Below, in pieces: positions 26,064 to 26,795 of a stretch of DNA of 35,020 nucleotides. Both the position numbers and the translations under genes were made by a program. The DNA lies in assembly GCA_016788665.1 (NCBI GenBank), contig JAEUSF010000003.1, positions 1 to 35,020 of the forward strand, read 5' to 3'. The number at the start of each line of letters is the position of its first letter. Positions within the stretch are counted from its first letter, which is position 1. The notes beneath the pieces were generated by a model. The model was not told the origin of the DNA and did not search any database. It saw only the letters and a list, made by a program, of their open reading frames with translations. This DNA comes from Candidatus Doudnabacteria bacterium. GTDB lineage: Bacteria; Patescibacteriota; Doudnabacteria; UBA920.

Positions 26064-26068
26064 TAAAT

Positions 26069-26102
26069 AAAAAAACCTTCGAAGTACTTCAAAGGTTTTT
26101 TT
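26069..26102. terminator. Bidirectional terminator shared with rnpB
   Basis: AAAAAAACCTT...GAAG pairs with CTTC...AAGGTTTTTTT with one mismatch. It has A-run and T-run on both sides. On the minus strand it follows the 3' end of rnpB by 2 nt. Confidence 0.88.
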
Positions 26103-26104
26103 AT

Positions 26105-26760
26105 GCTTTAAACAAACTCATAAGCCGAATTCTGTTTTATCTGTCGTTTTAGGCGACAGTAATAATCATCTATCTGCCCATAACATTGCTGTTATGGGTC
26201 AAGCAGCCTACCAAACTTGGCCTTGCACCCGGGTAAGGATTTAGCCGTTTCACCTTTAGTGTTACCACTAAAGCTCGCCCCAAGCCAGTTAGCCGCTTTT
26301 TGGCGGTTTTCCGGTATAGGGCGTCCCAATTCTTTCGCATTGGGACGTCTCTGTTCGCACCTCGAAGGTTACCCAAGGCGGGCGTTACCCGCTACCTGTA
26401 AGATTATAAGCTCTTAAGAGGCTTACAAAAATAGGTGTTCGGACTTTCCTCTCCGCTCTTTGGACTGTATTAAAGACAATTTGCAATCCGTCTTTTAAGA
26501 TGTCCCCATGACTGCCAAATTGCTTAAGCTTTTTCTCACGGACTAGAGCATCTTTTTTGCTGGCATATGCCTCGTAGTATACAACTTTAAAAGGGCAATA
26601 TGCTTTTGTTGCTATTTCTTTATCAGCATTATGTTGGCTAAACCTTAATCTTAAGTCTGCGGTTTGACCAATGTAAATATAGTTATAATTTATGCTTTTA
26701 TTACATAAACATAATGCATACAATCCAAAGGGCGGAGCGATTATTCGGTTTGTTTAAAGC
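26105..26760 (-). ncRNA. rnpB: RNase P RNA with a 249-nt insert in P3
   Basis: Catalytic RNA that matures tRNA 5' ends. Class A landmarks read in order on the minus strand: GAGGAAAGUCCG, GUAGCGGGUAACGCCCG, GGUGCGAACAGAGA, GGUGAAACGG, GUGCAAGGCCAAG, GGUAGGCUGCUUGA and UUCGGCUUAU. P4 can form between AAGUCCGAA and UUCGGCUU. The ends are fixed by P1, a perfect 13-bp helix (26748-26760 with 26105-26117). P2 is 7 bp (26739-26745 with 26161-26167). P3 is split: 26719-26737 pairs with 26451-26469 over 19 positions with one mismatch and one wobble, and its loop is 26470-26718. That loop encodes a GIY-YIG nuclease. Without it the RNA would be about 407 nt, a usual size. A promoter starts at P1 and a terminator follows. 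Confidence 0.93.
26385..26723 (-). CDS. GIY-YIG nuclease ORF inside rnpB
   Basis: Small URI/UPF0213-like GIY-YIG domain. The first motif is degenerate (LYALCL), followed by YIYIGQTADLRLRFSQHN (YIG, catalytic Arg and His region), CPFKVVYYEAY, and SKKDALVREKKLKQFG with the usual Glu. This domain fills residues of about 1-85 and coincides with the P3 loop of RNase P RNA. The frame then runs on into the RNA core, so the last 28 or so residues (from VQRAERKV) are encoded by rnpB helices and are not family-like. The start is uncertain: a TTG at 26723 lies within P3 with no Shine-Dalgarno, and no ATG is available. It has no promoter of its own. Whether it is translated is unknown; the intact motifs argue for recent function. 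Confidence 0.75.
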   Translation of the reverse strand: MYALCLCNKSINYNYIYIGQTADLRLRFSQHNADKEIATKAYCPFKVVYYEAYASKKDALVREKKLKQFGSHGDILKDGLQIVFNTVQRAERKVRTPIFVSLLRAYNLTGSG

Positions 26761-26766
26761 TTTTGG

Positions 26767-26795
26767 ATATTAACAAAAATGCTTGTTTTTGTCAA
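26767..26795 (-). promoter_or_regulatory. Promoter of rnpB
   Basis: On the minus strand TTGACA (26790-26795), 17-nt spacer, TAATAT (26767-26772). Predicted RNA start at 26760, exactly the first base of P1. It overlaps the divergent promoter of the sugar-transferase gene. Confidence 0.85.

Follow-up and report, generated by a model that had tools for sequence, protein, structure and literature searches.

A GIY-YIG nuclease gene in helix P3 of the RNase P RNA gene of Patescibacteria, probably a mobile element that lives without an intron

RNase P RNA is the essential RNA that trims tRNAs, and its gene, rnpB, occupies positions 26105..26760 of the reverse strand of the window (the whole stretch of 35,020 nucleotides that was analyzed), where it carries an insert in helix P3. 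All of the features of this locus described here lie on that strand. The RNA belongs to class A, given that the Rfam covariance model RF00010 (RNaseP_bact_a) matches it over the full length of the model (positions 1-367, aligned to 26494..26105) in an E-value search, at E 1.3e-20 and 68.6 bits, with the conserved core present and the arms of P1 at both ends of the gene. The initial annotation had proposed such a covariance-model search, and had considered that its reading would fail if a second intact rnpB lay elsewhere; this is the only RF00010 match in the genome (1.06 Mb, Patescibacteria (CPR), 97.1%-complete). The score is below the gathering score of the model (100 bits), as it is in several of the relatives, because the insert prevents the model from placing the 5’ part of the RNA, from P1 to P3. 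Between the core motif GAGGAAAGTCC (26451) and the 3’ end, the alignment is correct, while the portion before this is misplaced on the insert, the true 5’ strands of P1, P2, and P3 being located 220-270 nt further upstream.

The 5’ strand of P1, GCTTTAAACAAAC (26748..26760), is the perfect complement, over 13 bp, of its 3’ strand, GTTTGTTTAAAGC (26105..26117), and P2 is formed by the 7 bp of AATAATC/GATTATT, read from the sequence, which bears out both helices as first annotated. The 5’ arm of P3, TCCGCCCTTTGGATTGTAT (26718..26736), forms a duplex with the 3’ arm, ATACAGTCCAAAGAGCGGA (26452..26470), in which 18 of the 19 proposed positions are paired. The ancestral start codon contributes its A and T to the 5’ arm, as the last two bases, and the ancestral stop codon, TAA, its final A to the 3’ arm, as the first base. 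The 3’ arm stops exactly at the core motif GAGGAAAGTCC (26441..26451), which was identified by both its sequence and the RF00010 alignment, and lies directly 3’ of P3, as in class A RNAs in general, where P3 ends at this motif. The expected promoter, TTGACA-17-TAATAT (26767..26795), was recovered upstream by a consensus scan, and the terminator proposed after P1 is visible by eye as a terminator-like hairpin with a T-run (26064..26100), although it is absent from the list produced by the terminator scan.

About 248 nt of GIY-YIG sequence interrupt the P3 hairpin, and match the domain PF01541 at E 8.4e-13. This gene remnant (26470..26719) runs from an ATG at 26719-26717 to a TAA at 26472-26470, that is, over 250 nt, versus 252 nt in two intact copies from the same family (L109 and L094). 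The alignment with these two copies places two frame-breaking losses of 1 nt in the window, one near 26703-26692, and the other near 26511/26510, because of which three different frames now encode MHYVYVIK (N-terminal), SINYNYIYIGQT...FGS (core), and HLKRRIANCL with its stop codon (C-terminal). The 112-aa ORF of the window extends into the core of the RNase P RNA, and has no YVY strand, which was lost through frameshift, while the YIG, R, and E of the nuclease are retained, and the stem that closes the insert is still paired. By this comparison, the window copy is a decayed remnant of a gene, unless both losses are sequencing errors, which is less likely for the loss near 26511/26510, since this site is not a homopolymer. 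The initial annotation was thus right about the location in P3 and the GIY-YIG domain, but its description of the insert as a multiple of three, entirely coding, did not survive the comparison with the intact relatives.

The same layout is found, with an intact gene of 80-88 aa, at the same place in P3 in 27 further genomes (28 including the window), through a scan of a genome collection and the analysis of relatives. The collection scan, in which a pattern that linked the core and YYEA motifs was applied to one genome per species, in 84,980 species, returned 32 stretches, and in 26 of them, the core motif is immediately preceded by a GIY-YIG ORF on the strand of rnpB. The other six (L087, L088, L097, L104, L105, and L107) were dropped as chance matches or ordinary rnpB genes without GIY-YIG, and an additional genome, G137 (L082), raises the intact-insert genomes from 26 to 27. 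Relatives with an RNase P match in which the intact ORF occupies this position include G009, G017, G028, and G071. The hosts are named as Saccharibacteria, Parcubacteria, Doudnabacteria, Moranbacteria (Moraniibacteriota), Falkowbacteria, Yanofskybacteria, and Kazan, with one labelled WOR-3, so that nearly all of them belong to the same radiation (CPR) as the window. Among 380 sampled genomes of the phylum of the window, the pattern had 11 matches, of which seven are real, and the rest have no GIY-YIG ORF; the resulting frequency, around 2%, is a lower bound, given that the pattern demands exact motifs.

The genome labelled WOR-3 carries its P3 insert on contig JAGMCI010000008.1 (L103), within a 2.0 Mb bin that has one RNase P match, and the nearest P3 protein is that of L102, which may reflect either an element that reaches beyond the CPR, or a wrong or misplaced contig or label. 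A phage or virus origin of the unit was also considered and set aside, as the same DNA pattern found no match in viral contigs. The canonical core motif GAGGAAAGTCYGRRC was not found in G010, G014, and G019 (same family), nor in G016, G042, G045, and G097, none of which has an RF00010 match; the relevant contigs may be missing from these genomes, or their rnpB may be too diverged or split for detection.

The arms pair in every one of the filled genomes, for 15-26 bp, from the base beside the core motif upward. The ATG coincides with the top of the 5’ arm, falls inside it, or follows it by no more than 28 nt; the gene usually ends, at its stop codon, in or beside the 3’ arm. In 27 sequences, the duplexes formed by a genome’s own arms have a mean energy of -30.5 kcal/mol, versus -13.6 kcal/mol for swapped arms, with none of 20000 permutations being as good. 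In the first 13 positions of the stem, standard pairs fill 345 of the 351 cells (27 genomes), compared with 254 in the best of 2000 shuffles, and each position shows 2-5 types of pair, which indicates that the helix is real and selected; some of the lineages in this set are related, and hence not independent, but throughout, different lineages use different pair types. In the minimum-energy fold calculated for the 5’ part, P3 is likewise preserved and the insert forms its loop, at a z of -3.6 in the window, and -6.3 in L109. The possibility that the region might clearly not be P3 in the relatives, on which the initial annotation could have foundered, is answered by the 27 genomes, and the empty site that it had suggested looking for was found in 52 sampled relatives, in which rnpB lacks the insert and P3 is an ordinary short helix of 3-13 bp (median 7, by a simple hairpin finder).

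A second helix over the start codon is seen in L109, L094, L095, and the window, and the other lineages are without it; the idea that RNA structure within the ORF hides the start codon was rejected, since synonymous-codon shuffles match the observed pairing in 11-15% of the cases. A long P3 (stem plus loops) without a GIY-YIG ORF is present in L038/L116 (G007), L049/L115 (G033), L017 (G070), and L020 (G073), and these are possibly other inserts, or eroded remains.

The frameshifts of the window copy would also be expected of an assembly error, a contaminant, or a dead second copy. Such an explanation can be given hardly any weight, in the face of the single rnpB of this genome, the covariation of P3, and the intact homologues in 27 genomes from many different studies, which also removes the initial annotation’s own reservation that the arrangement might be an error of assembly.

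The encoded protein has the marks of a GIY-YIG nuclease, namely the tyrosines, the arginine, the glutamate, and the fold, in the 27 intact relatives and in an AlphaFold model. Residues Y3, Y5, Y16, G18, R26, H30, and E62 are invariant in the 27 intact proteins, as are the YYEA columns (Y48-A51), in this case partly because the search pattern required YYEA. The model of a P3 protein adopts the GIY-YIG fold with a pLDDT of 94, and its nearest solved structures are UPF0213, Slx1, and I-TevI. The proteins consist of the bare catalytic domain, with no DNA-binding extension visible.

These genes are under purifying selection. The pair L092/L095 has a dN of 0.04 and a dS of 1.17 (dN/dS 0.03), and L098/L114, a dN of 0.17 and a dS of 1.88 (dN/dS 0.09), while in the other pairs, dS is saturated, with a dN of 0.13-0.35; given the saturation of the synonymous sites in most pairs, dN/dS is a sign here of selection, rather than of recent transfer. 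Selection of this strength, together with the way in which the P3 proteins group in the tree, in a single cluster or a few, might be taken to indicate a domesticated host nuclease that is encoded in rnpB by chance, rather than a mobile parasite. This is improbable, however, for a gene that is absent from the 52 sampled relatives, present in only seven of 380 genomes of the phylum by the pattern (a lower bound), decayed in the window, and in conflict with the phylogeny of the rnpB core.

The evidence for this conflict comes from the comparison of the inserts with their host genes. In a tree with the other GIY-YIG proteins of the same genomes, the P3 proteins cluster, with three label changes versus 18 in shuffles, and they may have a single origin, falling into one or a few clusters in a tree that is short of columns. 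In L111 (Doudnabacteria), the rnpB core shares 84% identity with that of L149, an empty relative from the same genus, and 61% with that of L090 (Parcubacteria). Its GIY-YIG protein, by contrast, is 70% identical to that of L090, and only 44-46% identical to those of its order-mates L094 and L109 (Doudnabacteria), which means that the insert does not follow its host gene. The arm sequence CCCGTGAGATA is common to L111 and the Parcubacteria copies, which suggests that the arms travel with the gene. An empty relative of the same genus is also available for L094 (L047, core 85%).

A further relative, L159 (G037, from the order of the window), has no ORF in the P3 of its rnpB, but retains a Parcubacteria-type 3’ arm, ATAGTTATCTCACGGGG, which is likely to be the scar left by the deletion of an insert. 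In the sample of 380 genomes, outside which G037 falls, a search for this type of arm as a common relic recovered only the filled G028. Taken as comparisons of sequences, these data indicate that the P3 genes have moved independently of rnpB, and the conflict between the trees, the empty sites, and the scar fit a history of gain, transfer, decay, and loss.

Shine-Dalgarno sites are essentially absent before the ATG of the P3 genes. In about 10 intact copies out of 26, for the most part Saccharibacteria-like or close Parcubacteria, an extended -10 element precedes the ATG by 6-9 nt, which suggests that a leaderless mRNA begins inside P3; the copies that lack this element would be read from the rnpB transcript. 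A leaderless start is likewise suggested for other GIY-YIG genes of the genome of the window.

The paired arms that flank the ORF-bearing inserts could, in principle, contain the splice signals of an undescribed intron, with the GIY-YIG protein acting as its maturase. This is very improbable, as no Rfam intron model matches the window, in which no group I or group II catalytic core was found. There is also no room for an intron, because the start and stop codons lie in or beside the P3 arms, as the initial annotation had already argued, and these arms pair as part of the ribozyme, with no splice motif conserved in them between lineages.

The long paired stem around an ORF, in the absence of a match to any intron model, supports the earlier comparison with the rRNA insertions that are not spliced. 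In the intervening sequences (IVSs) of the 23S rRNA, RNase III cuts out the insert without religation, and a 23S_rRNA_IVP protein, or none, is encoded. The P3 inserts share the IVS anatomy, in that a long stem, here of 15-26 bp and covarying, closes an insert that may contain an ORF in a variable helix of an essential RNA, and splicing is not needed. They differ in that their protein is a nuclease, and excision from rnpB is only a candidate step. As the IVSs are typically built in this way, with a variable helix that holds an insert closed by a long perfect stem, excision without religation, which would leave an RNase P RNA in two pieces, is a slight favourite over the retention of the insert, the two being close to evenly balanced.

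Retention, to which a somewhat less than even probability is assigned, would produce one continuous RNase P RNA, some 250 nt longer than normal, with an unprocessed loop in P3 that the stem merely isolates, and no RNA in two pieces. P3 is a peripheral helix of variable length, and the rnpB genes of other CPR bacteria (L038, L049, L017, and L020) have enlarged helices, be it P3 or others, in which there is no ORF; where the extended -10 is present (about 10 of the 26 copies), a leaderless mRNA may need no processing of the ribozyme. Against this, stems of 15-26 bp far exceed what is needed to close a loop, and are of the kind that RNase III can cleave, and an RNase III gene is present in the genome of the window.

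Similar genes are found elsewhere in this genome, in which there are about nine other GIY-YIG places, UvrC included, most of which touch a structural-RNA gene. At four of them (C11 and C33 of G000), a GIY-YIG ORF is preceded by a perfect repeat of the first 10-33 nt of a tRNA, and followed directly by the complete tRNA, for Phe, Cys, Ala, and Gln (L053/L064, L054/L065, L058/L068, and L062/L070), and two of these four ORFs are broken. The ORFs end inside, or just before, the downstream tRNA, and the same layout was observed at a tRNA-Pro of G137 (L128, 26 nt) and a tRNA-Leu of G017 (L137, 23 nt). By their arrangement, the tRNA-linked ORFs look like a second type of target of the same kind of element.

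In three genomes, a GIY-YIG ORF is located around 100-155 nt downstream of the tmRNA, on the same strand, that is, in the genome of the window (L056/L067), G028 (L119), and G071 (L144). Other GIY-YIG ORFs are found a few hundred nucleotides from matches to the group I intron model RF00028 (L122 in G017, and L143 in G009).

The closest precedent is the report of GIY-YIG ORFs in insertions of the CPR 16S and 23S rRNAs that resemble neither type of intron (Tsurumaki et al. 2024, PMC11270868). Both that case and the present one involve non-intron GIY-YIG insertions in a structural RNA of CPR bacteria, but the host here is rnpB, rather than rRNA, and RNase P is not dealt with in the main text of that paper. 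The P3 inserts occupy one defined helix in 28 genomes, with covarying stems, whereas those of the rRNAs are sparse, and spread over several sites. For the rRNA insertions, a spread of GIY-YIG by homing was argued against, on the basis of its rarity there and the poorly conserved sites (Tsurumaki et al. 2024, PMC11270868), while the evidence from the P3 lineages, as far as sequences can indicate, points in the opposite direction, in favor of homing.

The RNase P section of a second study describes CPR RNase P RNAs as often falling below the Rfam threshold, with extended or missing helices (Lui et al. 2021, PMC8172020), and mentions there neither an ORF insertion nor a nuclease gene in P3. A search of open-access papers for rnpB or RNase P RNA in combination with GIY-YIG, a homing endonuclease, or an intervening sequence recovered mainly work on fungal or algal organelles, and none of those found, by the titles and abstracts listed, describes a protein gene within a bacterial RNase P RNA.

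Among the known nucleases, the free-standing GIY-YIG enzymes of phage T4 (the Seg family) are likewise small, and spread themselves without an intron, as may also be the case of the P3 genes, and the association of SegB with tRNA genes resembles that of the sister elements described here. The Seg enzymes sit beside their target, whereas the P3 genes are inside a helix of a structured RNA, and encode single-domain proteins. The closest solved relatives in both sequence and fold, with a similar length, are the single-domain UPF0213 proteins (1zg2 and 1ywl), which are listed only as hypothetical proteins, with no structural-RNA setting on record. On the best reading of these comparisons, rnpB represents a new kind of host gene for the known non-intron GIY-YIG insertions.

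Given this, it can be proposed with considerable confidence that the insert represents a mobile element, a small GIY-YIG gene that resides in P3 of rnpB with no intron around it, and that the window contains a decayed copy of it. The intact gene, of 80-88 codons, occupies the loop of P3, a peripheral and variable helix that, as the covariation shows, has been lengthened to 15-26 bp so that the ribozyme can fold around the insert. The nuclease would probably cut empty rnpB alleles near P3, and repair from the filled allele would then copy in the gene together with its P3 arms, in a form of homing that does without an intron. A counter-point to homing is that the P3 proteins appear to be bare catalytic domains, with no visible DNA-binding part. 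The RNA would not be spliced, with the insert being either cut out by RNase III, to leave two pieces held together by P3, or maintained as a long loop. In the window, the loss of the reading frame and the persistence of the paired stem are what would be expected once the parasite fails, but the ribozyme must still work.

A more far-reaching version of this proposal, which is put forward tentatively, combines an RNase P RNA that functions in two pieces in nature with a minimal GIY-YIG family specialized on the structural-RNA genes of CPR bacteria. Each lineage of this family would insert in such a way that the RNA keeps working, whether in P3 of rnpB, with its own closing stem, at tRNA genes, with the 5’ end rebuilt downstream of the ORF, or next to the 3’ end of the tmRNA.

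The P3 inserts may partly explain how rnpB escapes automated searches in some CPR genomes, and they provide natural variants with which to ask if RNase P RNA can function when split in two, or when it contains a coding loop. In the CPR bacteria, the core tRNA-processing ribozyme is a recurrent landing site for a gene encoding what is probably a mobile nuclease, and the P3 genes, together with their sisters linked to tRNA and tmRNA genes, point to GIY-YIG elements that parasitize structural-RNA genes.
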